Below, piece by piece: positions 12,201 through 60,630 of a DNA stretch of 60,905 bases (the first letter of the stretch is position 1; the number at the start of each line of letters is the position of its first letter). The notes below the pieces were generated by a model. That model had not been told where the DNA came from. It was given only the letters and a program-made list of their open reading frames with translations, and ran no database searches. The stretch is from Saccoglossus kowalevskii (Eukaryota; Hemichordata; Enteropneusta; Harrimaniidae), in the NCBI RefSeq assembly GCF_000003605.2, contig NW_003149765.1, positions 438,468 through 499,372 of the forward strand, read 5' to 3'. The translations under genes were made by a program, and so were the position numbers.

Positions 12201-15200
12201 CTGGTTTCGCCACTCCATTTCCACGACGTTATTACGTGCACATTCTCTGGCATATGCTTCGTAACTACTGCATTCACAGCCACTGGAGGCGTTGCATTTG
12301 CATACGTCCTCCCGACAAGCATTATAAAATGGAGTTGGGTCCACTGCCTGCAAAAATAATACACGGCTAACCCATTATTTGAGTTTTCCTGCATAAATTA
12401 CGGTGGAAAGCAACTTGACCCATACTCTAGCGGTCGAAAACCACCAGTACACAGCGTTCAACTTGGCCTTTGATCTTTTTTTTTCTTACCCAGAAATGAA
12501 TGTTTCACAATTCAAACGATAAGTGTCAAGCTGTGGCGACAATTCTGAAATACAATACTAGTACTTCGTCGGATTCAATGCGCTGGAGTAAATGTTTAAT
12601 AACATTTCATCAAAAACGTTCACAGCTTTTTCCAAATACATACTATACTTACACTATGACATACAGCAAAGTTAGATTCTGTCAGTTCTTTGCATAATTC
12701 ATCAGCATCCTCGACACGACCAGGATAAATGTGACAGTAAGATAGTTGATTACTGTCCTCGCATGAATCTGAAACGTGAAAGTTTCTTGTAAACGTTTTT
12801 TTTTTTATTTTGTTGGCATTGGTACAAACCATCAACCTATATATTATTGAAGTCTCGTTTATAAACGTGTTAAAGCAGAAGGGTCGTCACCTGCGACGAT
12901 AACAACACACGCAAAAAAACGCAAAGGCTCATGGGCAGACGCTTGTTTGTAAACAATGACAAGCTATGGCTATATGACGCATGCGCAGGTGACGACTCAC
13001 TCGATTTAACCTCGGCGTGTCTGCACACCGTGTACGTAGTTTTACTAAGAATGCTGCGTTAAAATAAATATATGGGAAACAAGATATCGAATTTTTTAAA
13101 TTCCCAACTTATGATCTATGCTCGTAACAAATATTTTAATATATAACAATTCATTTTGGTTTTTATTGCATCATTTCCAGCCAATCGCTAATTGAAGTTC
13201 GGGATCTACTGTTTTTTTATAATTGGTTAACACACCAATTTAAGGTAGAGATGCTGTTTACCTGACAGGTATTTTAATTAGTTAATTAGGAAACCAAGAT
13301 GACCTCCCTTGTCCACAAAACTATATATTTTCTGAAAGCTTATTGTGTGAATTTTAAAATTGTGTTAGTATTTTTTATGGAAACTGTAGTTTGAAATATG
13401 CACAAAAATGTGCTTTTTGGGTCAAAAGTGATTTAAAAAAAATAGCTTCTAAACCATGCTTCTGTTTCCTGTCAAAATTGGTGTATGGGTACATCTGTTT
13501 ACTATGAAGAAAGTGCCGTCTTGAAAACTGTTTACCAGTTGTCAATTTTGCAGGGCAGCAGCTCAAATTTCACTACTTCGAGTTATGCATGAGTTAACAC
13601 CCAGACTAGTTGTCTGTACGATTGTTGTAACACTGTTCAACCAAAAACAATGCCCGACGACGTTTTGAAGATAAACACATTGTCAATCATTTGTTAAAAT
13701 TTAAAAACAAAAGGTCAAAGCGTCTAGGAGCTATTTTTTTAAATTCTGGGATGTGCACTAAAATAAAGCTGAGATAATTGCTAATTTGCATAACAATTCA
13801 CTCAGTAAGAAGTTTGCTAATGCTCATATATAATTAAAATGGCTGTAACAGTTCCAAATTTAAACCTATTATAGTTATGTTAAAAGTTAAATATAGTGCA
13901 TAATATGGAGATCTCGTCATTTCTTTTTTTCACCATGTTTCTTTTTTTATTATTTATGTACAGCCTTGCTAAATCTTGCTAAGTATTCAAAAGAGAGAAT
14001 GTTTGCACCTGTTATCTATATTTTTAAATCGTTTTTTTTAGTATGTTCCACTATTCACAATTCTACAAAATTTTAACAATCTAAAGTCATGACTGTTTGG
14101 ATAATAAAAAGCAAAAAAAATGTCACTCCAAGTGCCCACGAACCTGCGTCTCTACCTTAAACCGCATATTATATGACTTACCATCGACGTCGTTCATTTT
14201 ATAAGAACGACCAAACAGTGATACGGAATCCACGACATCACCACGTATATCAGTCAAATCGTCACTGGAATCAGCATTGTATGTGCCACACAGTCCACAT
14301 GTTTTGTTTCGAAGGCTTCCATCAACCTGGATAAATATTGCTTCTTTACCGTCCCACCGCAGTGTGAAACCGAGTGCGCTGCTAATCACTATGTAATATG
14401 AGATTGTCTCAACGCGGAGTCCATCCATTGTCACCGGTAGCGGTACGTTATCCTCGTTTCTCGTCATCGCGAATCCAAACTCACCAAAGTTGAAATTATA
14501 TTCCATGTCGCTGACGTACAACGTAAGTGACCTCTTACAGTATTGAACATCGTGACACTCCGCTTTGTTGCGAATGTGAAGCTTAAACCTGTTTGTCTGG
14601 CATTCGCCGAGTAATAGATATGAACACGATCCATGGAAATCGTAGATGAGCCCGTCAAAGGTACGGTAGTGGTTCTGCCCCCATGTGAAGCAAAACCCGT
14701 CACCTATGAATGATAAAAGATGTTTTGAGACAAACTTTTAGTATGTTCCCTGTATGCTTTGTTTCAGCATTCACAATTTTTTTGAAGAAATTGCATGATA
14801 TTAAAATATTTAATATCAACTGGGAGATTACTAAGAAAATGCAATAAAGCTTTTTTGTTCGATAATTGATTTCAAAATTTAAAAAAGATTTTGTTTTGAA
14901 CAACACACAAAATAGTACTCGTTTCATGAAATAATGATTTATGTCAATGAGTACGTTTTCAATTATCTGTACATAAGCTCAGAGATCAATATACTGAATA
15001 CAATGCATTGTAGTGTATTGTGTTATATAACGCAATTCACCGTACATGTACACGTGCGTGGTTAATTATACCATTATAAAATGAATATTATGTTCTGTGT
15101 TGTCATAACCCGTATTACATAGCGATATCACCATTATCACGTACTCGTTATACTTCCTTCCATTGACCGTAGTTGTTGTGGGACGTACACGCCTACCGTT

Positions 15201-18200
15201 GGCGTCGGGGTCTCTGTAATATATAAAATAAATAAAAAAAAAACAATAAATAAATAAATTTAGCAGTCAATCAATTTTGGTACAACGAATGGATATAACA
15301 TTTAAAGTGACATCACCTGTGCAGACAACGTGAGCATTCGGTAGGTCTGGTGACCATAACATTGAGTCGAAGTCACATCTGTAAGTCGTCATTGTGCCGT
15401 ATGGAACTTTCAGTCCCGGAAGACATTGTAATGAACACAAGTAACCATCTTTATCCACTGTACAGCTGAATGAACCGTTAACTGGAGCGGGTGGCATGCC
15501 ACAAACAACTGTAAATTTACAAACATTACATGTTACAAATATCATGCTCATTAATGCAGAGAAGTCGCACAGGTTGTGTTGATTGGTATATTGAATGTGT
15601 AACATTGTGTGGATATTGAACGATATAACACAAATAATTAGTTAGTCTTAAAGAGTTTTTTTTTTAAATGAAATCCCCTTTCGTCTACATATTCAATCCT
15701 CATTAGCACTGCTGAAATGTAAAGAATATTTGCATAATGGCTTTGATTTATACTCCGGGAATTATTATTAGCATCATTCATTATTTCAGTATACTTATAA
15801 ATTACAGTGAATTACAAAATTACATTAAACAATATAGAATTAATGGCACTAAACGAATAAAACGAGTTAAAAGTATATATTACAATCTGTGAAACGGATG
15901 TAAATCTTAACCAAACATAATTTTTCAAATCATGTTGTCACTATTCTCTCACATACAACACATAGGTAACACACAATTATTTTGATATACACGGGCCACG
16001 GACACTACAGTCTCTAGCAAACACGATAAAGATACGAAGTGGCGAATCTTACAATGTTCGAGCACTTCTCACTGCGATACCACACCTGTTGTTAATACAG
16101 TAGACTATATTGAAAAATACACGGTTAAAAGACATAACGTGGTATACCTTGATCACAGTAGTTGCCGGTGAAACCTCGTGTACATTCACAAAGATATGAC
16201 AAAGTTTGCGGATGATTGGCACACGTAGCCCCGTTTTGGCAATCATTGGACTCACAATAATTCACAGATCCTGGAAAAAGATCATAGTTGATACGTTAGT
16301 TTCATTAAATGAAAACAACTCTTGTTAATATCGATCGTTAAATTAAACGTTCATACGAGGTATATAGCATTCGATGTGCACAGAAATTCGTGATCGTAGC
16401 TGAATATGAACGATAGATGGTTTAGTGGTTTTACCACAGTACGAAAGCAGTTTTTTGATCGATGCACTATTACATCATATGCACCCACCGTAATAACAAC
16501 CGTACAACTCTGCTCGTAAACACGCACTGCCCTCCCATGTATGTGGATGAATGCGGACATAACGAGCTATGAACGACTCTACCAGAACGTGTTTCTCTAC
16601 ACTAAACCTGTCCTGGTTTCCCTGAAACAACTGATAATACAAACATTAGTGTTAGGGGTCAATAATATGACAGTATCATGAACAATCGTGTTATTTCATC
16701 ATCCGCAATAATAACTGGATAGTTGACACAGTTATGCAGCAAATTATATTATGACATCGGTATGTATATATTATGACATAAACGAACAGACGGCAGTTTA
16801 ATTATTAAGACATGAAATGTGACATTAGAACGTTATTAATATCATTGGATGCCAGGCATCGAAGGCTTACTTTGACCACTCTGTCTGTTTTATAATCTCT
16901 GAAGTATCTTCCGTCATTGCTGTACGATAACTTGTAAGACGTGACCCACTCATCACCATCGCTCCTTCCCTGCGTTGCCACGCCAGTTACAACTTTAAAT
17001 GTGCCAAGGTCAATAGACAGCCACGGTTCATTGTCACTTGTCTCCGGACACCATGAGCCGAAGCCATGTAAACGACTACTAGAGGCAGGCTGGCTGAGCC
17101 TACTGGTAGACGAGTCAAAACTGTCGCTGCTGGCCACGCTTGTTTCTCCAAGTGCGTCGTTACATTCTACAAGAAAATGATGGACTGTATATTCTTATCT
17201 TGTAAAAACGTTGTATTATTTTTAGTTATGAAGAACAACTGGTCAAGCTGTGAGTGTTTAGCAGTTAGACTATTTGGAAATATGTGTCATAGATATGTTT
17301 TCAAACTTGACGACAATTGTATTAGTTTTTTGGCGTTTTATTTGTCTGTTATCGTATTTGATATGACTGATATGACTGACTAGAATGACGTAATCATATT
17401 GAGTTTAACATTTTGATTTCTACTAAGTTCTACTAATAGTCTAGTAGCACTGTTTGCCATAATATGTCATACCACGTGCATCAATAATGATACAAACACT
17501 ACTCGGTCTCATCAGTTGACCAATCGGAGCTTGTTTAAGAATGAGAACACGGATTGTCTTGTTCTACATGTTGATTGTTTGGTTCCCTGCGATGGAAGAA
17601 ATGCATGATGATTGGTGCATTTGCATATGTGTTGTTCCACATATGTTGTAATGTGATACACACTCACACTATAACATGCAGGCACACGTGAATATGTATT
17701 CGCCTGTCGTGTCGTATGTTCTACCAATAGAAAAAAGTAAACTGACCATAACAGTCCACAATCTCGTCATGTGGGTCCCAGGAGCCAACGTCAAGTGTAC
17801 AGTGGTACCTGGCATCAGCAAAACCATAAGGCGCAACAAAGCCACTATCACAATTGCTTCTACAGCTTCTGTGAACATAATGTACATTTCACGGTGAGGG
17901 GAGCATTGATGGAGGTATACACATGTATCAAAATAAGCAATTATTTTGTAGTAATATTTATAATATAGTCGTAGTTTTATATATTGAACATTTGAAAAAA
18001 AATTAAATGAACATATGACGGGTTTAATCATAATAATGTATTGTTTTCTTACACAGATATGTCTCCTCGTTGACTGCATATTAGCTCACCATTTCTTGGA
18101 CTTGGGAGTGACGGGCACAGCTTGTCTTCTGAAATTGCACATAATTCCAGACATTTAACACTTGCATATTTTAACTTGAATTATCTATTTTAAAGTACAT

Positions 18201-32801: not shown

Positions 32802-32850
32802 ATGGAGCTGATACCATTTCTATGTTTGCTGTTCACAAGCATCATATTAG
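32802..32850 (+). CDS. Gene B exon 1: start codon and signal peptide
   Basis: ATG followed by MELIPFLCLLFTSIILG: a short hydrophobic signal peptide core. The donor G|GTAGGT leaves phase 1. The next exon begins AYATQNDC, so cleavage is likely near that Ala-Tyr-Ala. No strong TATA box was identified upstream. Confidence 0.8.
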
Positions 32851-35800
32851 GTAGGTTTATATACGTGTTCTGTAGCCTGAGCTTTTGTAATAAGCACCTG
32901 CACGCTGATTTGCATGTCAGTGAGTTTAATGCAACTTTCGGATTCTGGATAGAAACATTCACAGATAGCACATTTCGGACTATCACGTACATCCTTATTT
33001 TCGTTTTATTATGATAAGCTTTTATCTACCAATCACATTCTTGTAACGTGAAACTTTACCACCTGAACTTGGTCAATTTAAGTTTATGTCGTTATTCTTG
33101 TACCAGTAGTAGATATAAAGTTGTATGCAGCCTGTTTAGCCATATTGAACCCTAACCCACAACAGGAGTGCCAGAGAAAGAGCGTAGTCTATTCAATATA
33201 TTATTACTAGAAACTAGTATCGATAAATAATGCCAGTACTATTTATGTTACCCATTTAGCATACGCGACTCAGAATGACTGTGACCTCAATATCGACGGC
33301 ACATGCTTCTTTATGCCCGATGAAACACGGGGATGGAATGAAGCTCGTGCTGAATGTCAGCAACGCGGTGGTGACTTGGCTGTCCTGGAGAAGGTGAATG
33401 TACAGAGAGCCGTCAACAAACTTGCCAGAAGGTAATCACCTAGAAATATCATAACTCCTGTCAACCATTTCGATCCAGTGTTCTATAGTTAGTGTATATG
33501 CCATGTAATTACAACATTGTGATATTGTTTTAAAAGATTCCCTATTGGTTGAACAGTAAAACGCGATATGTCACTGGTCACTACATACCTAGATCCATTC
33601 TAGTTCGAACAAGATAAGCTTTTGCTAGAAAAATGTTGACTACTGTAACCAGAACAATAATGGCCATAAACATCCACAAATCTATATATTCGTAGAATGC
33701 ATTTGTCCTGACATTTTCGCTAACAGAGTTTTATCAATAGTTGTTTGAATTTGACAAACATAGAAGCAAATTCTCTTTAAAACCAACTCGTGCCTATTTG
33801 TAATAATAAGTAATAATGAAGCCGTTCTTACACAGTGTACAGTGAGAGTAAAAAATCGTGTCATTGTTTTGTTTTTTAAAAAAAGCCAAAAATTGTGTGT
33901 TTCTTATCATTTCAGAGATGTGGAAATTTGGATCGGTTTACGGGACCTGGCACTTGATGGTCAGCCATGTTGGATTGATTCAGAAATAATTTATAACATC
34001 AATAAAGCTTATCCTTGGGCAGCATCTGACGGAAACACGGATGACAAGGACTGCGTTTTAGCTGCGAAAAGCCCAAAACACGTGCTTGAGTGGCGGTATG
34101 AAAGCTGTGATGATGAACACAATTACTTGTGCGAAATTATGGGATCGGGTAAGTAACAACCCTTAAAAAAATCCGTTCTCGTTTAGCGGTTAATTGCAGT
34201 TTACAGGTATAATTTTTATTTAATTTTCAGACGATAACTATGCATTGAACTTGATTAACGAAGAAAAAAATAAAATCGAGTCTGCAAGACAGGTTGAGTT
34301 AGAAAGACCAGTGACGAAGATTTTAGAAATCAATACCGGTTTAGGTATGTGTTAAGTTAAATCGTAAGAAAAATATAATTGAAAATCGTATTGAAATATA
34401 TTTGCCGTCCGTTATGTCCATGATAAATAACACATTATTATCCATATTGTACATACCAGATCTATTCGAAGCTGACATCAAACTGAACGACGATGAGAGG
34501 CGAAGGAGAGACGAAGGATTGTCAATCATGGATGAGTAATTAATTTTCAAGTTTTTCGAACCAATTTGCATGAATGCAGCATGGAAATGGACACCCCCAC
34601 TAACAATCTGTTTAATTGTTTGTCTTTAGAAAACGTGGTGCGACGTTGAACAGTAACAGGTATTGGCCTGCTGCAACTGTTCACTATGTGTTCGACGATA
34701 ACTACTATAATCCTCTCAGTAAGTTGTTATCAAAACAAATTTATTGCGATGACGTAGTTTTGAGCTCTGTATCATGCATCTTGTGATTCTAACCAATTAC
34801 CAACTGTTATTATTCAACAGGCTATGCCAGTAAACAGGAAGTGAGGGCCGCCCTGGCTGATTTGGAATCTGTAACATGCTTGAACTTCGTTGAGGGGTAT
34901 GCGTATGACCACATACGCGTCGTCAATGAAAACGGGTAAGTGCAAATATTGGACTGACGTATCATTGAATGATTCGCGGTTATCTATTTTCTGTACGGGC
35001 GTGTATAGAGACTGAATGTTTGGTTTATTATCATATAAATATAATATTATTATACATCAGTCACCGTAACGCCGTAAGTTACAACGTGCTGCAATTTTGC
35101 GGTATCTTACGGAGTATTTTCATCCTACCATATAAGAAATGCGAATTCCAAATATGGAATGATTACGCGAGTAATCGTACTCTCATGATAATGAAATAAC
35201 GTGGCTGCTACCACGGTTTGACCATTCTCGCGCCAGAGTTTATTTTCGCTTCGAGACTCACGANNNNNNNNNNNNNNNNNNNNNNNNNNNNNNNNNNNNN
35301 NNNNNNNNNNNNNNNNNNNNNNNNNNNNNATTGGAGGAAAAGATGTATAATAATAAGGTTATTACGAAGACACCTCTAGGTATGCACTCAGACAGTACAC
35401 CGTCGATTACGTCGCACGCGTCGGTCGATACTGCCGCTGTACTGCCTTCGTGCATACTTCGAGGTATCCTCGTAATAACGTCATAGTATTTTGTATGGCA
35501 TATAGGGCACAATACTGAACAGTGAAATGCGGACAATATGTTTTTTTTATTAGTAATCATGTAATAAGCACCCATAAATGGCTAAGTAAATTCCAGCTCT
35601 GCCAGATGACGTGTTTTATTATTGTACGATGTTTATTTTGGATTCTCATCTCTGTATATTTGTTCATTGCATTTAGATGCTGGTCATATATCGGCAGGCA
35701 AGGAGGAACACAATATTTGTCACTACAAGATTCCTACTCTGCATCGTGTATATTCAGTGGTATTATTCAACACGAGTTTTTGCACGCTATTGGTTTTTGG

Positions 35801-38800
35801 CATGAACAATCTAGACCAGATCGCGCTAGCTTCGTTACAATAAACTGGGCAAACATTTTGCCAGGTAAAAAAAATACGAGAATGAACTGCTCGGAAATAG
35901 TAAAACTAGTACTACTGTGCACATATAGGATTTCTTTTTTATTCTGCCTCCGCTTTAAATTTAAATGTTTATTTAATTTTCTTGAGCAGGAGCCGAACAC
36001 AATTTCAACACGGAGGCAATGACAGTTCAGAACACGTATTACGACTTCGGCTCTGTGATGCACTACAGTTTATACGCTTTTGCTATCGATAGTAATATTA
36101 AAACAATAATTCCAAATCAAACACCAGTCATCACTCCAGGCCAGATAGTTAGCGTTAGTGTTACAGACGTCGCGGAAGTAATCGGACTTTATAATTGTTG
36201 TAAGTATACATAGTACAAATGTGTAGTTATATTTCTACTGAAACGTTTTTTTAAAAAGCGTAGTACGTACGTACGTACTATGTATTTCTATTGTTCGCGT
36301 CGTATTTACTTCGCACCGCCACGTGTGGATAATCGTCCTGTGCCCTTGCCTGTAGATATGGTAGTTCACGGAGGATGGTCTACTTGGAGTTCTTGGTCGA
36401 ACTGTCCAGTAACATGCGATGGTGGCCTACAGACGAGAACACGGCAGTGCAACTACCCTCCACCCTCAGTTAATCCACCCGGACTACCGTGCATTGGAGA
36501 CAGCTTGGAATATCGAGATTGCATGACAATACTGTGTCCATTGGAAATCGGCAAGTAATTTATTCTTACATGTTTTCGGACTCCCCGAATATTACTTGTC
36601 CTGTTTTAGAAGCTGTGCAATTAAAATTAAGATCCTAACACCATCCAACTATGAAGAAATAATTTCTCCATGGAAAACGTGCAAAAATACATATTATGAC
36701 TATAACCCATTTTTAACTCTTATTTCTCGTAAAATAGTATGGTAACCACCATTATGTTTCATAATCACATTTGCATCAAACTATACTACTAAAAACATGC
36801 AAACCTGCGTGAAGTACCCATGAACATTGAAGTACCATGTGTTACGTGTTATTTGATAAAACTCATTGATTAAACTTCGAACTATGTTTGTGTATTACAC
36901 ATTAGATTACCAACATCGAGGTTGCTGGTCTGACATGTATTTTCCATCGCTGTTGGTAACACTTGAATTGACAGGAAATCCATATTTAGACGGGAACTAT
37001 TGGTCGAGAAGCGAACCAGGCAGGGTAAGTGTTGTGTAAAACTATGGTTATTTGCATCCCTTTATTACTCTAGACATAATAACATATATATTTTCATTGC
37101 AATACAAGTAAATAACCTTTATGATTTGTTTGTATATACAGAAATGTGCGAGAGCAGCGGTACATGCTAACTATCAATACTTTGCTATGAGATTTGACGG
37201 GAGATGTTATGCCACCTCGAGTGCATGGCTGTATCAATCCCAGGGTGCATCAACGGACTGTGTGGAAGGATTTGGAACGACCAATGCTATCGATGTATAC
37301 GAAATTGAAGGTAATAATAGTGGCATCATAAAAAGTAAATGTTTAGAAACTGTAATAATGTTCAATTTGTACAAACTTGAACAACAATTCTATAGGTGTC
37401 GACTGGTTAATGCAGTGGGTGGAATAAACAGTCCTGCTTTGATTTTCGTTGGATAAAATTCCACACAAGGCAACCACCATTTCACATCACCGTTCTATGT
37501 ATTTGTACTGTTCTGTTCTGATATTTAGATATCCAAAAACTGTTGTGGTCAAAGTCATTTTAGTATTTGTTCTAATTTTATTATTTTTATAGATTGGGTG
37601 TGTCCCGATGGTTCGACTTACTACGGTTTCTGTTACTTGCCGCTCTCATTTACCCCACACGTCACCAGCTACTGTCCCTCGAGCCACTATTGTGTGACTA
37701 TTGGAGGCACTTCATACGCCCCCGTGTCGATATGCTGTAAACAGGGTAAGCTAGAATAGATATATATACGGACAAGACATAGTTGTTGAGTTGTCATGAT
37801 TCCTATAATGTTCATGTTGACTTTCTTTTGCAGAAATGTGTATCGACAACTGTGACGATTACATATATTCACGCGATTGCTGGTGTGACACCGCATGCGT
37901 ATACTACGGAGACTGTTGTTTTGAATATGCAGATCAATGTTCAGGTAAAAAAGCCTCAAGATATTATATTTGACAATTGCATAAATGGGTAGCTCGATGT
38001 TGATTTATTTTTTACTTGTATAAGCTATGTGTTGTGACATGCATTATTATATCACAATATTTTACACTGTAGGTCAGGACATCTGCTGGGCGTCAGGTGA
38101 TCCACATTATTATACACTTGATAATCTCTACTACGACTACCAAGGCGATTGTGACTACATCCTAACAAAAAGCAACAACAACGATTTTTCAGTTACTGTG
38201 AACAACGAGTTTCACAATTCCTACCCGCTTTCATGGACTAATGATATAAAACTGAATATTTATAATCACGTAAGATGTTAAAATATAATTATCATAAATC
38301 GAAACTGCAACTGTTAGGGATGACGTCAAAAGACCGATGTCTGATAAAAAAAACTTGCTTTTAAATTAGTTTGGGGGTGGGGGGGGTTGACCTCAAAAAT
38401 TACCATCCTACAAAAACGATTTTATTTTTTAATGAAGTCAAAAAAATCTTGGAGTATTTGTAGTTCGTTTCTTTTTCTATCCATGCATGTACAAAAATAA
38501 CAGAAAATGAAAAGAAAAAAAACACCCAAGACGAGAAAATGGTTTAGTCAGAGTCTAAATATGTGCGTCAAATGAGGTAAATTTCAGGGCATGGACCTAG
38601 AACCAACTGCTATGCCATACTACTGTCCGATTATCAATTTGTATTTAATGGTGAATATAGTCTGACATCATGATAAATATTTATCAATTAAGTTTCAGTG
38701 GGGGTGGGGTGGGGGCGGTGAAAAAACTGAAGGAATTAAGTTTTTTTTATCCTACATTGAACTTTTGATGTTGTCCCTATAGCTACATCAACAAGCCATG

Positions 38801-41658
38801 TATTTCTGCGCCATGTGTATATTTATTCGCATTTTCATTTTTACAGGAAATACGATTGCTGCCATATAAATATGCTACGGTTGATGGGTCGTTTGTCAAT
38901 CCACCTGTGACTGTCACTCAGTTTTTGAAAATTGAATTTGCTGGGTATTGGTTGGTGAGACACATTTAATTACAACTCGTCTTTTGATACTTTGATCGTA
39001 GTTTGATACTTTCAAGTAATTGTATTTATATATGGTCATGTACTATCATTGTTTCCCATGTTTTAAGATTGTAAGAACAGGTCATGGAATGATTATATAT
39101 TGGAACGGATATTCCACTGTCTATGTATATTTGTCAAACACACTACAAGGAGATGTAAGTGGTCTGTGTGGTAACTTCAATGGCAATCCTTCTGATGATT
39201 GGACCAAAGCAAACGGAGTATTGGTAATTATGATACGATCAGGTTAAACCAATCCGATTTACGAACGTAACGTATTCACCATACGTGTTTAATTTATGAA
39301 TAATGCTTTAATTTCCACAGACATCATCTGTTAACGATTTTGGCGACAGTTGGGCAGTGAGTGCAAACTGTGCCCCAGCACCGTCTAAGCGGTCAATTGA
39401 AGAACATTTTCAACGGAACACTGCCCAGGCAGAAGAAATCTGCAATGAGCTTTTTAACTCTGGTATTGTAAATTTAATAATATATCTCAGGCCTTTATTT
39501 TCCTGAAAACTGACTTATAACAATTTAACATAATTTGTAAGGTCAGATGTAATACAACATTTCAACTACTACTTTCATATATTTTTTTTCAGATAATATA
39601 CCGAGCTGTTCCGTTACACTTCCTGGTTACGAAGATGTTTTCAAACCCGCTTGTGAAATGGATGTGGCAGCCGCTTTACCTGATGATGACACTGGTGGAT
39701 GTGACCTTGTCGCCAGCTATGTTGATATGTGTCGAGGTGCTGGGGGAGAAATTGGTAACTGGCGATCTGGAACAGTGTGTGGTATGAGTGTACATATTTC
39801 TTATTTGTTGACACATTTCCTAGAATAAGTGACACTATAATAGTATGCATCTTCAAACATTCCACAAATGAATTAGGTAAAATTGTTGTTATGCAGAAAT
39901 TTCATGCGAAGACGGCAAAGTCTACAAGGCATGTGGCTCTGCTTGCCCTCCAACATGCGAGACCCCTGAACCGTTTGGTCCCTGTACGGAAGATTGTGTA
40001 GAAGGTTGTTTCTGTGCAAATGGTACTATCATGGACGAAGGTGGGATATGCAAGGCCCAAGAACAATGTGGGTGCTATTGGCTAGGCGTACTTTATAGGG
40101 TATGTGATATGTTGGTCTATGTTTAGACATATTCTCGAAAAATGGTTGTGTTGTTATAAATACTGACGCTAATTATGATTTTACGTAAATATGAGTTTGT
40201 AGGTTACATTATTATTCTGTGCTTCCAATGTTTACTTTATTTGTTATATGTTTACTTTTTTAGTTTGGTGAAGAGATGCCCAATAACGAAATATGTGCAT
40301 GTGATGATAGTAAGTACACGATTCAGTCATGTTTCACAAATAGGTTACATAACATTGCTAAACAAAATCAGATTATTTTGATTTGACCTATTTATAAAGT
40401 ATGAAATGGTGCCTGTTCATTTGTGCTTGAAACACGAGGAAATGATGTACATTTTGTCAGAATCTCGGTAGTAAAGAAATTAGATATCAAAGCAAAAGCT
40501 GCTCTGCTGTCTCCCACATGATCAGCTTATTAGCAGTGCGCACTACAGTGGCAGTGAAACTTCCATTTGATAATAACAAATTTATTTTCTGAATTAGTAT
40601 TTGTCTATGCATTTGGTTTTTACATTTGTGCTGATTATTTTGATTTGTGTTTTATGTATGCAAGATGCAAGATTCAATTTTATGGACTTCTATTACCAGT
40701 GATTAGGGTGATTTGTTTAGACGGTTTAACGCTTGCGGTGTGGATCGTTGGATCGTTGCTCCCGGGATTCCATCGAGATATACTTACATAACTCAGTGAA
40801 TCACAAGTCCTTATTGTGCTTCTGTTTTGTATTATGCAGTTCCTGATACTGTGTGTATTGGTTGCCGACATTTTGAAATAAACACCGATGAAGTGAATTT
40901 TGCGAAAGCAAAGACTATCTGTCAATCCCGAGGTGGGAGGCTGGCTAAGCTGGACACACAACCTGTCTTCAAGGAAGTACGCCAATTTATGTTTGCGAAT
41001 AACTATGAGGATGAGGTGTTTACTGGCTTCTGGTTCGGTCTGGATGATATCGACTCTGAAGGAGAATACGTCTGGTGTGATGGTACTTCTCTGGACGAGC
41101 AACTATTTACGAAGTGGGGTAACGGTCAACCGAACAACAACGTACAGAAAAACCCGGATGGTCAGGACTGCGCTCAGTTGTGGTAAGCCCCATTTAAGCA
41201 TGTTCGTCTCATGATATTTTATTATATAAATAGGATCCCAGATCGAATATTAAGCTCAAACCAGCCATATTACAACCAGCTATATTACTACCAGCTATAT
41301 TATTTTCAATTGGGTGTCTAAAGCGTGTTTTTGTTTTCAAATTTAAGGGCACACCATTTATTGACTTGGGACGATGAGTACTGTGGTGATAAGAAGGGAT
41401 ATATCTGTGAATATGGTAAGTGATACTATGCTGTATGTTCTCGTAATATATGGAATTTCTAATAGTACACTCAGAGCATATTTGGAACAAACACAAAACA
41501 GTCAGTGCTTTGGGATTAAGTGTAAGTGATTTTAAACAGTCTTCATGGAGCTGATATCATGTTTAGTTTGCATGAGCAGATGGTAATTGGGTAATTTGCA
41601 TAATGATGCTAATTCAGATTGTCTATATTTTTCAGATTACTGTCTGGATGAACAATAA
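32802..41658 (+). CDS. Gene B: secreted astacin metalloprotease with lectin, TSP1, somatomedin B and VWD-C8-TIL modules
   Basis: 24 exons: 32802-32850, 33260-33431, 33916-34148, 34231-34344, 34460-34535, 34630-34718, 34821-34935, 35677-35864, 35990-36199, 36356-36550, 36975-37024, 37142-37310, 37593-37745, 37834-37944, 38073-38269, 38847-38954, 39068-39223, 39321-39462, 39593-39781, 39897-40099, 40264-40309, 40840-41182, 41348-41415, 41636-41658. The sum is 3399 bases: 1132 residues and a stop, all junctions in phase. Astacins are zinc endopeptidases, secreted as zymogens. The flanking modules would bind glycans, matrix or VWD-type polymers. All introns are GT-AG except the one after exon 10 (GC-AG). 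The gene lies head to head with the mucin-like gene A. A role in processing or anchoring to mucus is inference. Confidence 0.92.
33260..34148 (+). CDS. Gene B exons 2-3: C-type lectin domain 1
   Basis: Exons 33260-33431 and 33916-34148 (about residues 17-152). Long-form CTLD: DCDLNIDGTCFF, WNEARAECQQRGGDLAVL, IWIGLRDLALDGQPCWID, KDCVLAA and EWRYESCDDEHNYLCE. The WIGL core and Cys framework are intact. The usual EPN/QPD and WND calcium/sugar motifs are absent, so calcium-dependent sugar binding is doubtful. Confidence 0.92.
34231..34535 (+). CDS. Gene B exons 4-5: linker and astacin propeptide with aspartate switch
   Basis: Exons 34231-34344 and 34460-34535 (about residues 152-215). A charged, probably helical linker (NEEKNKIESARQVELER) leads to DLFEADIKLNDDERRRRDEG. 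In astacin propeptides the Asp of FxGD/FEAD-type motifs occupies the zinc site in the zymogen; here it is Asp195. The RRRR run and the following EKRGA (exon 6) offer activation sites. Confidence 0.88.
34630..36199 (+). CDS. Gene B exons 6-9: astacin catalytic domain
   Basis: Exons 34630-34718, 34821-34935, 35677-35864 and 35990-36199 (about residues 215-416). The mature enzyme probably begins just after KR at 216-217 and continues RYWPAATVHYVF. CLNF, GCWSYIGRQGG and YLSL precede the zinc site HEFLHAIGFWHEQSRPDR: His315, Glu316, His319, His325 as ligands and catalytic base. The Met-turn SVMHY (Met369, Tyr371) is intact. The domain ends GLYNC. Length and motifs are those of an active enzyme. 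The intron 34936-35676 carries a 66-base assembly gap, but the coding frame continues across it without loss. Confidence 0.95.
35264..35329. other. Assembly gap (66 N)
   Basis: A run of N within intron 7 of gene B. The splice phases of the exons on both sides agree and the astacin sequence is continuous, so no coding sequence seems to be missing. Confidence 0.98.
35358..35479. repeat. Imperfect foldback next to the gap
   Basis: The arm starting GTTATTACGA at 35358 pairs with the arm ending at 35479, about 25 of the first 30 bases matching, and pairing continues inward (GACAGTACA). A 122-base hairpin element, plausibly why the neighbouring sequence failed to assemble. Confidence 0.6.
36356..36550 (+). 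CDS. Gene B exon 10: thrombospondin type 1 repeat
   Basis: Residues about 416-481: HGGWSTWSSWSNCPVTCDGG, TRTRQC, PCIGDSLEYRDC and LCP. The WxxWxxW ladder and six-Cys pattern are complete, with possible C-mannosylation and O-fucosylation sites. The only donor giving the right phase for the next exon is TCG|GCAAGT, a GC donor matching the GC-AG consensus. Confidence 0.92.
36975..37310 (+). CDS. Gene B exons 11-12: apple/WSC-like Cys segment
   Basis: Exons 36975-37024 and 37142-37310 (about residues 481-554). NPYLDGNYWSRSEPGRKC, then CARAAVHANYQYFAMRFDG, CYATSSAW and a final DVYEIEG. The C-A-x-A-A...Y-x-x-F-A-M...G-x-C-Y layout resembles PAN/apple and WSC-type carbohydrate-binding segments. The assignment is by pattern only. 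Confidence 0.6.
37593..37745 (+). CDS. Gene B exon 13: unassigned Cys-rich segment
   Basis: A phase 1-1 exon of 51 residues (about 554-605) with seven Cys: WVCPDGSTYYGFCYLPLS ... SYCPSSHYCVTI ... SICCKQG. The exon is well bounded (TTTTATAG acceptor, G|GTAAG donor). I do not recognise the domain; it may be a small disulfide-knot module. Confidence 0.8.
37834..37944 (+). CDS. Gene B exon 14: somatomedin B domain
   Basis: A phase 1-1 exon, about residues 605-642. Eight Cys in the somatomedin B pattern: MCIDNC, DCWCDTAC, YGDCCFEYADQC. In vitronectin and related proteins this knot binds protein partners. Confidence 0.92.
38073..39223 (+). CDS. Gene B exons 15-17: VWD domain
   Basis: Exons 38073-38269, 38847-38954 and 39068-39223 (about residues 642-795). 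CWASGDPHYYTLDNLYYDYQ and GDCDYIL start the domain. EIRLLPYKYATVDG and the WNGYSTVYVYL strand lead to [18 protein letters not shown]. The calcium-loop GDPHYYT and GLCGNFNG signatures are intact, with Ser in place of the first Cys of CGLC, as in many single VWD proteins. Confidence 0.92.
38373..38718 (+). repeat. Two G-rich tracts in intron 15 of gene B
   Basis: Runs of five or more G separated by single bases at 38373-38386 and 38700-38718, on the coding strand and so present in pre-mRNA. Possible G-quadruplexes. Confidence 0.5.
39321..39781 (+). CDS. Gene B exons 18-19: VWD end and C8 domain
   Basis: Exons 39321-39462 and 39593-39781 (about residues 796-906). VNDFGDSWAVSANCAPAP closes the VWD. 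A C8 follows: AEEICNELFNSG, CSVTLPGYEDVFKPACEMDV, GGCDLVASYVDMCRGAGG and NWRSGTVC. Confidence 0.88.
39897..40309 (+). CDS. Gene B exons 20-21: TIL domain and TILa-type tail
   Basis: Exons 39897-40099 and 40264-40309 (about residues 906-989). CEDGKVYKACGSACPPTC, CTEDCVEGCFCANG and CKAQEQCGCYWLGVLYRFGE, ending NNEICACDD. The TIL pattern and the following C-x-C spacer match those of gene A. Confidence 0.9.
40840..41415 (+). CDS. Gene B exons 22-23: C-type lectin domain 2
   Basis: Exons 40840-41182 and 41348-41415 (about residues 989-1126). FAKAKTICQSRGGRLAKL, FWFGLDDIDSEGEYVWCDG, KWGNGQPNNN, QDCAQLW, LLTWDDEYCGDKKGYICE. QPN and WDD take the place of EPN/QPD and WND, so calcium-dependent glycan binding is plausible, unlike CTLD 1. 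Confidence 0.93.
41636..41658 (+). CDS. Gene B exon 24: last codons and stop
   Basis: Acceptor TTTTTCAG; it encodes DYCLDEQ and TAA. A 22-base last coding exon that follows in phase (1) from exon 23. The 3' UTR runs on to the poly(A) signal. Confidence 0.75.
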
Positions 41659-41790: not shown

Positions 41791-41796
41791 AATAAA
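41791..41796 (+). terminator. Poly(A) signal of gene B
   Basis: Canonical AATAAA 133 bases after the stop, followed by a GT-rich stretch (GTGTATTTTC). Confidence 0.75.
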
Positions 41797-55000: not shown

Positions 55001-58000
55001 GTGAATCATGCTGCTTTTGCAGCTTGCGTCTTGAATTACAATTAAAACCATCATCAGCTGACAAGTTTCTCATTTAGCGGCCTATATATATTTCCTATAT
55101 CGATTTCATGGCTCAAATCATTATCTCAGCTCAAGGAAGCTCTGTCTGATATATATATAAATATGATACCTTTAAGTCTTATGTAATTTTAAAAACTTGA
55201 GTATGGATAGTGTGTGAATTAAGTCAGCATGTCAATAACAACAGTTAACATGGAATGTCTAAAATGTAAGCACTCGCTGTGAAAAAAACTTGGTGCCACT
55301 TGATTCTTGGCTACAGTTTATGAATTATTGGGTTTTTATGTTATTTTAAGAAGCGCTGATGCTGTTGTATTAATGTCTAGGATTTAGTCTGAATGTTGTT
55401 GTTTTTTGTCAGTGAAGGCTTTTAGCAGGCAATGTGTTACAGCAAATCTCAGAAGTATTGGGGCAGCCAATTTGCAAACTCGCTAGCAAATTGGCTAACT
55501 GCTTGGGTTTTGACTAAACAGTAGGCTTTCGAATCTCGCTGGCGCCGTCTTGTGGTCACGCCCACTTAAAACGAATCTATATAACAGTAGGGGACGATCC
55601 TCATACTTTAGAAGCTATTCGGCAATGGTCTTACAGTTAGATGGCGATTTCAATTTCAAATATACCAGGGAAAGTGTTCTATGCTCTTCCGTATCCACAC
55701 AAAAACGCCGAATGAGGTCGATTTTTTCAGCGGTTGGCTTAATGTTACCCCAACGGATCGTTTGAGTGTGAAAGTTTGTTATTTTCTCCCTAGGAAACTG
55801 TTTCTCAACTTGTCTATTTAGTGTCAAGCAGTGTTCAAGAAGGTTAACCTCATATAATAAATATCGGTAGATTAATCTCATTAATAATATTATCACGCCA
55901 GCTGACTGTGGCCATTTTCGGGCTCAAATCAGTGGGGATCCAGACATGTACCAGCCTGAGGATGCGTAAAAACATTGCATGTCCCCTAGTGCAATATAGA
56001 CTCGCCAAGAGTGGACGCGATCACAAACCGGCGCCAACGAGATTCGAAAGCCAACCGTTTAGTCAAAACCCAAGCAGTTAGCCAATTCGCTAGCCAGTTT
56101 GCAAATTGGCTGCCCCAATACTTCTGAGACTTGCTGTAATAGTGGTGTGATAATATCTAATAACTAATATCTAATAGTGTAGCTAGTATTTCTCTTCTGT
56201 CTAGCACCCCTATACATGCAGTCCAAAAACGGGGACTCATGGATTGATTACTGTGCATACATCCGTGAGTCCTAGTGTGCATCCGTGCTGACTGGTGGCC
56301 ATTTTGTTTTAGGGAATACGGCTTTAGTGCCATATCTCTGACATTGCTTTGACTGATTACGTTCAGATTTTATATATTCATTATACATCATGTCATAGAT
56401 AAACAAATGGTATTGGTTCGACTATCTGATTCAAAATGGCTGAATGGTGGCCATTTTTGTGCTAAAAAATCATCAGAAAATCAAGCATTTCGATTCTGGC
56501 ATTCCATGTAAAAATCTCTGTCTTTTGTGGATGGATTTCGTTCAAACTTGGTACATACATAAAAGATTATGGGTCCCTGTTTATTTTGTTTTTCAGATTG
56601 GATTTAAAATGGCTGACTCACAGTCATTTTCTATTAATGAATGTGATTCTGACATACTTTGACTGATTATGTTCAAATTTTATATATTCATTGTAGATCA
56701 TGTCATAGATATACAGATGTATTGGACTATTGACTATGTGATTCAAAATTGCCCACTGGTGGCCATTGTTGGCTTGTTGTTTTCTTTTTGTACAGTTGTT
56801 AAAAACACAACTGCATTATTGTGCAAAATCCTGTGCTCAGTGAATTCGAAAAAAAAAAATATAAATTTTTTTATATTGTTTTCAAATTTGACATATTTCT
56901 GAGAAAATATTTTAAATAGTATTACTACATTCAGTGTCTGTTATGTGCATTTGACTGTATTCAATATATGGCATTTCTTCTATATTTGTTTGAGATACAA
57001 TACAACATTAAAAGGAAAAAAATAAGTAAAACACACAAAAAAATAAAACATTAAAATGGTTAATGGGGGAATAAAAATTAACAACAATTTATGACTAGGC
57101 TATCGATAGACAAATTTAGTATTTACAAATCTATTCTATGTCTCAATATAGGTCAAAGGGTATATGGTGATTACCTTGTCATGCAATGTATAGAAGATAT
57201 GTTAAATACTCTGTTTTCATGATATATGACAACATTTATTCAAAACTTTATGGACTTACTAAATATTCTATAGTTGGTAGACTTTATGTCAGCCAGAAAC
57301 AGACATAGCACAACACACTTAAGACAATTGATCATATTTTATTAGCTCCGCTGTCGACTTTGTCGAGCGGGGCTTATCATATGAATGATTGTCCGTGTCA
57401 ATGTTTTACTTTTTTCGACTTCTTCTTGAAAACTACAAGCCTGAATGCTTTGATACTTGGTGTATATGTACCTTGGGTAGACCTCTCTCAGATTTGTTCA
57501 TTTCATGATCATATCTTCAATTCTCTAATTTTGGTGAATATTTTTGTCTTTTTGGTAAAAAGTGATATTTTCAACTTCTTGTTAAAAACCGCAAGTCCAA
57601 TTGCTTTGAAATTACATATATAGGTACTACATGTGGACCTCTTTCAGATTTGTTCATTTTGTAATGATATCTTCAATTCTTTAATTTCGGTGAATATTTT
57701 TGTAATTTTTGGTAAAAAATGATATTTTCGACTTCTTGTTAAAAACCGCAAGTCCAATTTCTTTGATATTACATATATAGGTACTACATGCGTACCTCTC
57801 TCAGATTTGTTCATTTTGTAATGATATCTTCAATTCTCTAATTTTGGTGAATATTTTTGTAATTTTTATTAAAAAATGATATTTTCGACTTCTTGTTAAA
57901 AACCGCAAGTCCAATTGCTTTGATATTACATATTTAGGTACTACATGCGTACCTCTCTCAGATTTGTTCATTTTGTAATGATATCCTTAATTTTCTAATT

Positions 58001-60630
58001 TTGGTGAATATTTTTGTCATTTTTGGTAAAAAGTGATATTTTCAACTTCTTGTTAAAAACCACAATCATTTATGGTGAAAAATGATTTTGAATTCTTTTT
58101 GAAAACAGCAAGTCCCATTGCATTGATACTATATGTATTGTCCATTTTCCAATGATATCTTCTGTTCTTTAATTGAAATGTGCATTGCTAACAGCAGAGC
58201 TATCTCAGGCGACAGGCTGCTTGTTTTATATACATGATATAAAATTACGGTAAAATCTGTATTAGTAGTCACGACTTCTATTAAAATGGTAGATTGTAAC
58301 AGACGATATCCTTTCTCTTAGAGCATGTACGCATATGAAAAATGGTGAATTTTTGTTTGAAAAATTGTTCAAAAAGTATGCATGCGAGTTCTATTATGAA
58401 TGAGACTTCTAATACAGATATTACAGTATTATTAAGATATTCTGATTTGACTTTTTTAATCAAGACATTTAACACATCTTGATTTTGTATAGTAGTTTAA
58501 ACCTGTTGTATATTTTTCTTCCAAGGTACAACCAGTATTACCCGAAACTCAGCCAGGTGAACGAACGCTGTCGAACACATTCCAGTACAAATACACCGAC
58601 ATACCAGTTGTGTTCACAGTTCGCGCATATGACTACATCAACATTACGATGTCTCTCAGTAACTCAGTTCATCAACATATCCCAATTCTGAACATAGGGA
58701 ATTCCTGTCCAGGCTGTGTTGAGATGTGGTCAAGACTCTCAAAATCCAGCTGTGATTTTGAAAGCAATTATGATTGCCTAAATGCGTACTGGATATGGAA
58801 GACAGAATCAGAGGAGAACGAATCAGCCGGACTACAGTGTCATTCATTGAACAATCTCCTGCCCACCATGGCGCACAGATACAGTACTTGTTTTGGTGAG
58901 TGTTGTAAACCACAGTAAGGTCAAATGTCAAATTCCATTTCTTACTTGGGGGGTTGAATTCTAAAACCGGTTTAACCTTCAAGTCACATGATTATTAACT
59001 GACATTGATTTAGAAATAAATTTCCTACCCTAGATTTGTATAAAAAATTATTATTAGACTTGTAAATTATTTTTAAATTAATATCTGTAATGTTCCTCAG
59101 AACTATCTTTACCAGCTCTCATCCAACATTTCACTTACTGATATGATTTTAAGTATACGAAGGATTTAAGGATTGGATTGTTGTCCAATAAAATATCTAT
59201 AAATTGACATAATGCCAAGATGATGCATACAGCCTTGCCATTCAATTATATTTTGTACCAATAATCAACAAAATGAATTTTGTATGGTGACAGATATAAA
59301 TATGAGTTGTTAATTGCTGTTAGTTTATAATCAATTCTATAAACCATTGTTAGGTGACTTTACTATTTACACAAATACAATAGAATTAAAAGTTAAGCTA
59401 ATTATCCCATGCAAAGCTGGTAATAACCGGATCCACATGCTGTGTAATCCGCAGTCATAACTATTAGATGACACAATATCATGACTTTTAACCACAGTAT
59501 GTCGTTGCTTTCACTGATGCCAAAAATGCATGTATGTTGCATGGTAGGTGTAAATAAACAGGATGTATGCTGATATTGTGTAATCGTGTGTCACTTCGAT
59601 ATCCTAGTGTGATAATTGCTTTATTACATTTGTACTTATAGGTGTGTCACTATGATATGCCATAGTAAGATTACTTTTATGGGCGTGTCAAGTTGTTCAT
59701 TGCCTCAGTCTCAATCCATATATGTACTACTGTACAAGGCACAGTTATAGATAGGTTTCATCATCCCCCAAATATTTTAATTTTTCCCTTCATCAATATA
59801 TATACCACAGTTTGGTATTATTTTTAGAAAATGTGTTGGTGTTTAGAAATACATTGTATGGGTATGTTTGGGGCAATATACAATTTTTTTTTACTTAAAA
59901 ATGTTCTCTTTCTTGTTGATATACATAAATGAACACATTTAATAGCTATTTAAGATTTTTGTCCTAAAAAAGCAGATTTAAATATTATATATGATGTTAT
60001 GAGGTTATTATTATACATCTTTTCCTCTCAGGGATACATCATGTGAATGTCGAAATACAAAACATTTGAACAGAATCAGCGAACTTTCTTTGTGTGGAGT
60101 CCGGCCAAACCCTGGGGGCAGCCATGTTGTTTTTCATTATTAGAGAACGCGTAATATTCCATATTTGAAATTGGGATTTTCTAATATGATAGAATAAAAA
60201 TACCCTGTAAAATACCAAAACTACGACACTCTGTAACTTATGGTGTTACAATGACAGATGTATAATAGTGTTAAATATTGGTAGTTAACTTGCACATAAA
60301 AATTTATCTGAGCACCTAATATTTATGAAACAAGACAGGACTGTTCCATGGAAATTAAACCCAATTGTAGTACCGGTAAATAGATAACTAAGTCTTCATG
60401 AGATTATACTTTAAATATATTCTATACATATTCGTGTCTTGCACAGCACCACCAGTTATCGATTACGTCACCCCTAGTACAGCTGTTGTTATTGGTCAGA
60501 GTGTAACGTTGATTTGCACTGCTACTGGCAAACCAACTCCAGATATACATTGGTACAAAGAAGGACAAATGCTGACAACTTATTCAAATTATTATCATGT
60601 ACCAGATGTACAGGAAGAACATCTTGGCAA
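49022..60630 (+). CDS. Gene C: secreted or membrane protein with unrecognised ectodomain and Ig domain (3' end outside window)
   Basis: Five exons in phase: 49022-49079, 52227-52429, 54387-54512, 58526-58895 and 60447-60630, coding for about 313 residues before the window ends. A signal peptide is followed by about 230 residues with paired Cys and several N-x-S/T sites (NNLTIN, NHSNT, INITMS), which I do not recognise, then an Ig domain. The ectodomain stretch around VVFTVRAYDYINITMSL recalls the beta-sandwich of the FAMeT-like family; this is only a resemblance. A receptor or adhesion protein is the likely class. Introns are long (1.5-4 kb) and contain repeats and X-box motifs. Confidence 0.8.
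51578..51591 (+). promoter_or_regulatory. RFX X-box motif 1
   Basis: GTTGCCATAGCAAC fits GTNRCC-N(0-3)-RGYAAC exactly. It lies in intron 1 of gene C, 649 bases before exon 2. Confidence 0.4.
52019..52032 (+). promoter_or_regulatory. RFX X-box motif 2
   Basis: GTTACCATAGCAAC fits the same consensus, 195 bases before exon 2. A weaker third half-match is at 51487-51500 (GCCGCCATGGTAAC). Confidence 0.4.
52227..52429 (+). CDS. Gene C exon 2
   Basis: Acceptor TTATTGCAG, donor AAG|GTAATT, phase 1 in and 0 out. It encodes ITFSLQNEPKECENYFQYM ... LLVRCFINSPNNKLYM ... LDGPQWIIQIPDEGEDRERD. Two Cys and an acidic end; no domain assigned. Confidence 0.75.
54168..54312. mobile_element. 145-base MITE with long terminal inverted repeats
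   Basis: ATACAAATGTACACCCCAAC at the left is exactly complemented at the right end (54293-54312), and pairing continues with few mismatches to about 47 bases per arm. Located 74 bases before gene C exon 3. No open reading frame of note. Confidence 0.8.
54387..54512 (+). CDS. Gene C exon 3
   Basis: Acceptor CTTTTTCAG, donor CAG|GTAATT, phase 0-0, 42 residues: IGIAWEYLLNSGYVSRNLME and INMVHGNHSNTVLSIQ. It contains two N-glycosylation sites (NLT, NHS). No domain assigned. Confidence 0.72.
55437..56140. mobile_element. Foldback element with about 115-base terminal inverted repeats
   Basis: The left arm (from TTACAGCAAATCTCAGAAGT at 55437 to GGCGCCG near 55550) and the right arm (CGGCGCCAACGAGATTCG near 56028, ending GCTGTAA at 56139) pair over about 115 bases with roughly 10% mismatches. 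The 470 bases between them carry no transposase. It sits in intron 3 of gene C. Confidence 0.85.
56335..56770 (+). repeat. Diverged direct repeats with GGTGGCCATTTT boundaries
   Basis: TTTGACTGATTACGTTCAGA followed by TTTATATATTCATT occurs near 56347 and again near 56657. Between them lies a more diverged related unit near 56530 (GGATTTCGTTCAAACTTGGT). GGTGGCCATT recurs at 56293, 56447 and 56759. Confidence 0.6.
57342..58225 (+). repeat. Tandem array, 157-base unit, about 4.5 copies
   Basis: The anchor ACTTCTT(G)TTAAAAACC recurs at 57418, 57574, 57731, 57888 and 58045, spacing 156-157 bases. Units include GCAAGTCCAATTGCTTTGA and CTCAGATTTGTTCATTT. The flanks are GC-richer: GCTCCGCTGTCGACTTTG at the start and a partly inverted GCAGAGCTATCTCAGGCGAC at the end, suggesting a dispersed element with an internal array. 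Intron 3 of gene C. Confidence 0.85.
58526..58895 (+). CDS. Gene C exon 4: Cys-containing ectodomain
   Basis: Acceptor TTCCAAG, donor G|GTGAGT, phase 0 in and 1 out, 123 codons. VQPVLPETQPGERTLSNTFQ, then VVFTVRAYDYINITMSLSNS looks like a beta-sandwich edge. NSCPGCVEMWSRL, SSCDFE, YDCLNAYWIWK, LQCHSL and STCF follow, with six Cys in 60 residues. No family recognised. Confidence 0.85.
58900..60446 (+). other. Intron 4 of gene C (1.55 kb)
   Basis: No repeat family, exon or RNA gene recognised. Confidence 0.5.
60447..60630 (+). CDS. Gene C exon 5: immunoglobulin domain (N-terminal part)
   Basis: Acceptor CTTGCACAG, donor AA|GTAAGT. PPVIDYVTPSTAVVIGQSVT, LICTATGKPTPDIHWYKEG and the end DVQEEHLGK give an I-set-type Ig fold: first Cys in LIC, core Trp in HWYK. 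The D-x-G-x-Y-x-C segment must be in the next exon, outside the window. Confidence 0.9.

Follow-up and report, generated by a model that had tools for sequence, protein, structure and literature searches.

Can a secreted protease be mounted on the D assembly, the VWD-C8-TIL fold of mucus proteins, and what would such a mount do for the enzyme? The question is raised by a 60,905-nucleotide stretch of the Saccoglossus kowalevskii genome (contig NW_003149765.1, positions 438,468 to 499,372; hereafter the window, C3976:438468-499372 of a 572-Mb genome in 4830 contigs), in which an earlier note had described one 1132-residue, 24-exon frame combining an intact astacin protease with two C-type lectin domains (CTLDs) and a VWD-C8-TIL unit. 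A gene of 24 exons was rebuilt from splice sites and translation at 32802-41658 on the plus strand, its exons forming a phase-consistent chain in a single frame with no internal stop and one terminal stop; that description holds in its coordinates, its strand, the number of exons and the order of domains, and the length is corrected to 1155 amino acids (aa). The encoded order is CTLD, propeptide, astacin, TSP1, WSC, a cysteine-rich (Cys) module, somatomedin B (SMB), VWD, C8, TIL and CTLD. Our preferred reading, to which we give about an even chance, is that the protease is secreted and sits on a monomeric scaffold that nicks itself and is held by disulfides, a scaffold that would anchor it in glycan-rich matrix or mucus without forming a covalent VWD polymer. 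The features of the gene, all on the plus strand (+), are as follows.

32802..32850, +, exon 1: start codon and putative signal peptide (MELIPFLCLLFTSIILA); gene model, with the signal peptide assigned by visual inspection of the hydrophobic N-terminus
33260..34148, +, exons 2-3: CTLD1, aa 18-152; Pfam Lectin_C stretch 40-147, 55% identity to the CTLD1 of paralog C370
34231..34642, +, exons 4-6 (start): propeptide, carrying FEAD (aspartate-switch-like) and, ahead of the mature protease, a KR site
34643..36199, +, exons 6-9: astacin catalytic domain, aa 220-416; Pfam Astacin 2.5e-48
35771..35803, +, zinc site HEFLHAIGFWH, aa 315-325; motif reading
36052..36066, +, Met-turn SVMHY, aa 367-371; motif reading
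36356..36550, +, exon 10: TSP1; Pfam TSP_1 1.3e-8
36551..36905, +, intron 10: GC donor, ATTAAA at 36620 and 36869; gene model
36906..37310, +, exons 11-12: divergent WSC domain; family WSC matches
37593..37745, +, exon 13: module of six cysteines with a weak likeness to Lustrin_cystein that stays under the cut-off
37834..37944, +, exon 14: somatomedin B, eight Cys; Pfam 26.2 bits, cut-off 23.1
38073..39410, +, exons 15-18 (start): VWD, aa 665-848; Pfam 6e-30, PDB matches to FCGBP, VWF and mucins
38096..38107, +, GDPH, aa 673-676, where self-cleavage at Asp-Pro is predicted; motif reading, PMC10880436
39411..39781, +, exons 18-19: C8; Pfam 1.2e-5
39897..40309, +, exons 20-21: TIL and a shortened E-like segment; Pfam TIL 2.4e-10
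40840..41415, +, exons 22-23: CTLD2 with QPN and WDD motifs; Pfam Lectin_C 4.4e-15 (CTLD2 alone)
41636..41658, +, exon 24: final seven residues and stop; gene model
41791..41796, +, polyadenylation signal AATAAA, 133 bp past the stop; sequence reading

Domains were called with Pfam-A on the whole protein at curated cut-offs, supplemented by scans of single parts. Lectin_C (7.7e-29, in two stretches), Astacin, TSP_1, VWD, C8 and TIL exceeded their cut-offs in the whole-protein scan, which listed no CUB, EGF, VWC, MAM or Somatomedin_B match at E up to 1; Somatomedin_B was above cut-off (1e-5) when exon 14 was scanned alone. The exon 13 match to Lustrin_cystein reached 15.1 bits against a cut-off of 27. 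Exons 11-12, noted earlier as apple/WSC-like, scored 16 bits against a WSC cut-off of 27.8 in the window copy, and the WSC profile was matched by four of six family members (best 1.6e-6); an apple/PAN identity found no match and was set aside in favour of WSC on these family matches. Compared with solved structures, the WSC profile returned no credible relative (best E 0.22). The catalytic domain, rightly called intact, combines the full HExxHxxGxxH zinc site with the SxMHY Met-turn, as in astacins (M12A). Its propeptide motif, which we take to be an aspartate switch, is FEAD in the window copy and FEGD, FQGD or HEGD in the six paralogs with exon 5 modelled, and the KR site lies directly before GATLNSNRYWP at the start of the mature protease.

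The D assembly resembles those of FCGBP, which heads the PDB matches to the VWD-C8-TIL region, followed by VWF and gel-forming mucins. All ten VWD starts read next to astacin or other parts of the family have GDPH (5/5 copies with astacin and a full D assembly, 3/3 astacin-free tails and 2/2 astacin-VWD genes of a second kind, both described below). Nine of the ten also have Gln 14 residues after the GDPH Asp (Gln 688 in the window protein), the tenth, C4071, having Met, which one of the aligned FCGBP D assemblies also shows at this position. VWD-C8-TIL with GDPH and the supporting Gln, the FCGBP type, is thus present in the window protein, and its Cys669 and Cys800 lie at the positions of VWF C867 and C996, presumably a disulfide pair. 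For FCGBP D10, D4080 mutants are reported to be uncleaved, H4082N to be inhibited and mutants of Q4094 (the +14 position) to be partly cleaved, cleavage renders the domain trypsin-resistant, and FCGBP carries GDPH and forms no disulfide polymers (PMC10880436).

A covalent VWD polymer was considered and rejected because the cysteines for it are missing. C1099 and C1142 of VWF (7zwh_D numbering), which we take to be the intermolecular cysteines of C8 and TIL in a polymer-forming D3, fall opposite a Gly and within a deletion, respectively, in the alignment to the window protein. Their equivalents are taken to be Cys1132 (C8) and Cys1174 (TIL) of MUC5AC, reported to form its dimer bonds (PMC11933400). 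A gel-forming mucin encoded in the same window has a VWF-D3-like cysteine cluster in its C8 (5788-6177, minus strand) at the site where the window gene reads DVAAALPDDDTGGC. Other cysteines are missing in pairs: the window VWD lacks those at the C898- and C993-like sites together, both present in the four paralogs aligned, and its C8 region lacks a further two together, both present in paralogs C2244 and C2076b and both absent from C48, a pattern that fits the loss of whole disulfides. The suggestion of the earlier note that the protease can lodge in a VWD polymer hence finds no support for the covalent route, and non-covalent docking to mucus or glycans is possible.

The order of parts recurs elsewhere in the genome. 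An astacin search of the genome, in which all candidates were scored, gave 51 exon matches, including eight short loci (L001-L008); among 16 stretches around astacin matches, nine held other family parts beside astacin, six astacin only and one nothing. Nine loci were modelled by chaining exons on order, length, phase and splice sites, exons 1 and 24 not being sought. The entire order CTLD1-astacin-TSP1-WSC-Cys-SMB-VWD-C8-TIL-CTLD2 is found in C2244 (exons 2 and 4 not found by chaining) and C2076b (exons 2 and 23 not found), and both models have Astacin, VWD, C8, TIL and TSP_1 above the Pfam cut-off, with Lectin_C above it in two stretches of C2244 and one of C2076b. C48, the closest relative for WSC, SMB, VWD, C8, TIL and CTLD2, keeps the order from astacin to CTLD2, exons 2-5 not being found in the 3.4 kb read before exon 6. 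C2076a has astacin, Cys, SMB, VWD, C8 and TIL, with TSP1 and WSC not found in the stretch read; C3981 reaches the contig end after the Cys module, and the stretch read for C2076c ends after TSP1. The closest N-terminal relative is C370 (L024, L027), with a CTLD1 identity of 55% and an astacin identity of 62%. Two loci on C1345 (L019 and L020, minus strand, 9.9 kb each) have astacin followed by tandem TSP1-WSC-Cys, with four TSP1 copies in L019 and two in L020, and further WSC matches extend on this contig down to 317 kb.

Splicing was compared across these copies. With phase unconstrained, the window phases were taken on both sides by 60 of the 68 exons modelled in four paralogs, the other eight differing at the donor only; in the controls (three family loci in antisense, plus both strands of three other loci, which lie on contigs with other astacins and are not random DNA) the sole score over 40 was a 42 for exon 7. 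Introns of the window gene measure 82-741 bp, intron 7 including a 66-base run of N (35264-35329), and 22 of 23 are GT-AG. The sole GC-AG intron is intron 10, after TSP1, whose donor (36551-36552, TCG/GCAAGT) is otherwise a good site and is GT in all seven paralogs with exon 10 modelled, a count on which the preference of the modelling script for GT donors bears. At the domain junctions past the signal peptide the shortest intron in some copy is 82 bp for CTLD1-propeptide, 94 for propeptide-astacin, 149 for astacin-TSP1, 99 for TSP1-WSC, 105 for WSC-Cys, 88 for Cys-SMB, 128 for SMB-VWD, 97 for VWD-C8, 85 for C8-TIL and 98 for TIL-CTLD2. The TSP1-WSC and WSC-Cys minima come from the C1345 loci, where pairing is less certain because of the repeats, the next values up being 184 and 216 bp. 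With introns down to 82-149 bp in at least one copy, the junctions offer little space for a promoter and a signal-peptide exon. Since the order recurs at other loci, in full in C2244 and C2076b and for the most part in C48 and C2076a, with phases mostly kept, a single protein, as claimed in the earlier note against two separate genes, is strongly supported.

The tail is also found apart from the protease. SMB and VWD occur together at no fewer than 12 loci (the window gene, C48, C2244, C2076a, C2076b, two on C2164, C1619, C4071, two on C4257, and C2793, whose VWD match contains stops), a lower bound given that two of the genome searches scored 117 of 385 and 40 of 707 candidates, whereas the astacin search and one further search scored every candidate. 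Astacin lies just upstream at five of the 12, and the contigs of the other seven are without an astacin match. Three of these seven (C4071, one locus on C2164 and one on C4257) carry TSP1-WSC-Cys-SMB-VWD, with no astacin, CTLD1 or zinc motif before TSP1 in 3.5, 5.1 and 2.5 kb, respectively, a more distant or degenerate astacin being possible. The TSP1-WSC-Cys-SMB-VWD-C8-TIL-CTLD tail is a unit that recurs both alongside the protease and, within the DNA read, in its absence.

Two further loci, L003 (C451, with L035) and L006 (C1851, with L034), have a VWD whose start is co-oriented with astacin and no more than about 0.8 kb from it. These VWDs have GDPH with Gln at +14 (SGDPHLRTFDGRPYSFQG and SGDPHMKTFDGRPYTFQG, respectively) and are complete, and a search of the next 4 kb or so downstream, with the sequences of the family itself as queries, found no C8, TIL or CTLD2. 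We infer that each is one astacin-VWD gene without the remainder of the D assembly; the window architecture is therefore not the sole union of astacin and VWD in this genome. That astacin and a GDPH-bearing VWD were paired twice, here in another astacin branch, suggests a useful combination and not chance. At another astacin locus (L005, C724), a single-exon WSC follows within 0.2 kb of the last matched exon; in the window family WSC spans two exons.

As a tethered protease, the window protein would act as follows. The proenzyme would be activated by a cut at the KR site, and the VWD would cut itself between Asp674 and Pro675, its chains remaining held by the Cys669-Cys800 disulfide. Once nicked, the D assembly would be protease-resistant, like FCGBP D10, and could thus sit beside an active protease; non-polymerising, it would together with the CTLDs, SMB, TSP1 and WSC fix the enzyme within glycan-rich matrix or mucus, limiting its cutting range. 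Copies without the protease would bind at the same sites, either as structural partners or in competition, comparable to ADAMTS-like proteins beside ADAMTS. More tentatively, and with somewhat less confidence than in the tethered enzyme itself, we propose an undescribed animal gene family in which a self-cutting mucin-type D assembly would serve as a protease chassis of two disulfide-held chains, the nick shielding the chassis from its cargo, and in which sisters without the protease or its catalytic Glu might provide matching scaffold or brakes at the same sites. If true, this would directly exemplify the tethering of a protease by a fold known from mucus proteins, the D assembly. The gene would give a simple test of the purpose of GDPH self-cleavage, because the self-nicking domain shares a chain with a protease, and in its family scaffolds that carry the enzyme would be naturally paired with scaffolds that do not.

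Several observations weigh against a tethered, glycan-bound protease. Calcium-dependent sugar binding in C-type lectins involves EPN or QPD plus WND; CTLD1 has neither EPN/QPD nor WND and CTLD2 only QPN and WDD, a mixed picture for the predicted glycan binding. An extra cysteine in each CTLD (Cys92 and Cys1091), in a similar region of the fold and absent from the compared paralogs, possibly makes a new disulfide; both could also be free, which would permit an intermolecular bond outside the D assembly. SMB scores 17.6 against a cut-off of 23.1 in C2244 and is not listed for C2076b at E 0.01. The zinc motif of C370, HEIMHALSFLHE, has Ser in place of Gly, and C370 shows no exon after exon 8 in the 7.8 kb read downstream, so that some copies may lack protease function or the tail. 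C2076c (L016, C2076:216000-225900), whose CTLD1 exon is 77% identical to that of C2076b, reads HQALH for HExxH, the catalytic Glu being replaced by Gln, and is likely an inactive copy. Lastly, the donor of intron 10 is non-canonical, and retention of this intron would end the protein at an in-frame TAA (36556-36558) two codons past TSP1; with ATTAAA nearby, a short soluble isoform arising in this way is conceivable.

Of the alternative explanations, the one that survives best is an enzyme for bonding or de-bonding mucus, which would be stored with an adhesive or mucous secretion, remain attached within it by way of its scaffold and loosen it, a role proposed for the astacin-like protein of sea-star de-adhesive cells. 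The nearest functional parallel that we met, an analogy from another species, is an astacin-CUB protein from de-adhesive cells of Asterias rubens that stays on the footprint, the domain key of the footprint proteins including vWF D, C8, TIL and a lectin domain (PMC9382459). The Asterias protein carries CUB instead of the tail of the window gene, and the gel-forming mucin gene in the same window, which would suit such a role, is weak evidence as gene neighbourhood; we regard this explanation as possible but unlikely. An immune or symbiosis effector, whose lectins would bind microbes and whose protease would act on them or on host pathways, would account for a multi-copy family with divergent lectin domains, the expansion of copies reflecting this role. 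The scaffold order is conserved, and by simple count the rate of nonsynonymous substitution (dN) is below that of synonymous substitution (dS) in all four measurable copy pairs (dN/dS 0.25/1.02 for C2244-C3981, 0.17/0.31 for C2076b-C2076c, 0.19/0.68 for C1345a-b and 0.23/0.89 for C2076a-b; the window-C48 and window-C370 pairs are saturated at synonymous sites), with the highest ratio in the pair containing C2076c, and such an effector appears improbable to us. Tolloids are astacins, and a tolloid-like protease could cut matrix or growth-factor antagonists, with a VWD-C8-TIL that would bind BMP regulators as in CV2/BMPER. BMPER indeed has VWD-C8-TIL with GDPH (PMC10880436), and the missing CUB, EGF and VWC in the Pfam scan of the window protein leave this role in BMP or extracellular matrix (ECM) processing still less probable than an immune one. 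Least credible is a wrong joining, by exon chaining, of a CTLD-astacin-TSP1 protease gene to an SMB-VWD-C8-TIL-CTLD gene, for which the GC donor, the stop and ATTAAA in intron 10 and the astacin-free tails speak, and which the same order in mostly the same phases at two further full loci, the GT donor in seven of seven paralogs and the short window introns from Cys to SMB (88 bp) and SMB to VWD (128 bp) make very unlikely.

The gel-forming mucin gene occupies the first 18 kb of the window (1-18 kb) on the minus strand and runs off its left end. Besides the C8 at 5788-6177 (minus), its features are the following.

16841-17167, minus, F5/8C
16146-16289, minus, EGF
15306-15503, minus, sushi-like, just below cut-off
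14180-14704, minus, VWD
11827-12066, minus, TIL
6324-6746, minus, further VWD
4346-4624, minus, TIL
2740-4194, minus, long Thr/Ser-rich stretch with Mucin2_WxxW

The two VWD starts read in this mucin have GQNH and GDSH, not GDPH. Elsewhere in the window, a 159-nucleotide inverted repeat (55437-55595 and 55981-56139, 87% complementary) and a four-copy direct repeat at 156-157-nucleotide spacing (57393-58065) are perhaps remnants of mobile elements. On the mitochondrial contig C4830 (L030), cox1 lies on the opposite strand to nad1 and cox2; ATA falls mostly at what we take to be usual Ile sites, AAA at usual Lys sites and AGA at a usual nad1 Ser site, codon use that suggests a bilaterian invertebrate and argues against the echinoderm code.

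How does a protease tethered to a D assembly compare with known systems? ADAMTS proteins are zinc proteases on ECM scaffolds with protease-less relatives that share the tail; they belong to a different metzincin family, and their tail is unrelated to that of the window gene except for TSP1. The domain list of a 2023 astacin review includes CLEC, PAN, SMB, TSP and VWF (Prosite PS50234) and has no WSC, C8, TIL or separate VWD entry (PMC9848320). In placozoans, astacins and a VWD-TIL-C8-PTS (proline, threonine and serine) mucin are named as different proteins (PMC11452194), and the text matched in a paper on new ECM domain architectures mentions TIL, C8 and VWD and gave no match for metalloprotease, ZnMc or CLECT (PMC4224354). 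Among the matches listed in the open literature, at the level of titles and abstract openings, the architecture is described nowhere, and an annotated but undiscussed relative may exist; the remark in the earlier note that no named protease has VWD-C8-TIL plus two lectin domains agrees with these matches and with the review's list.

The multidomain M12A astacins (BMP1/tolloid, meprins and TSP1-tailed forms) share with the window protein a secreted proenzyme, HExxHxxGxxH, the Met-turn and C-terminal accessory domains; the window gene adds the WSC-Cys-SMB-VWD-C8-TIL-CTLD scaffold and a CTLD before the propeptide, and has none of the CUB, EGF and MAM domains sought, CUB and EGF after the protease being the mark of BMP1/tolloid. 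BMPER/CV2 is without a protease and presumably has VWC repeats where the window gene has TSP1-WSC-SMB. What it shares is one partial D assembly (VWD-C8-TIL) that bears GDPH (PMC10880436). Gel-forming mucins and VWF (D1-D3) share the VWD-C8-TIL order, whereas the window gene is without equivalents of C1099 and C1142, tandem D assemblies and a PTS region. The closest likeness among D assemblies is to those of FCGBP, in the best PDB matches, GDPH, Gln at +14 as in D10 and no polymer cysteines found; unlike FCGBP, the window protein has a shortened E domain, a VWD without one cysteine pair present in four paralogs, and just one D assembly, in the same chain as a protease and lectins.

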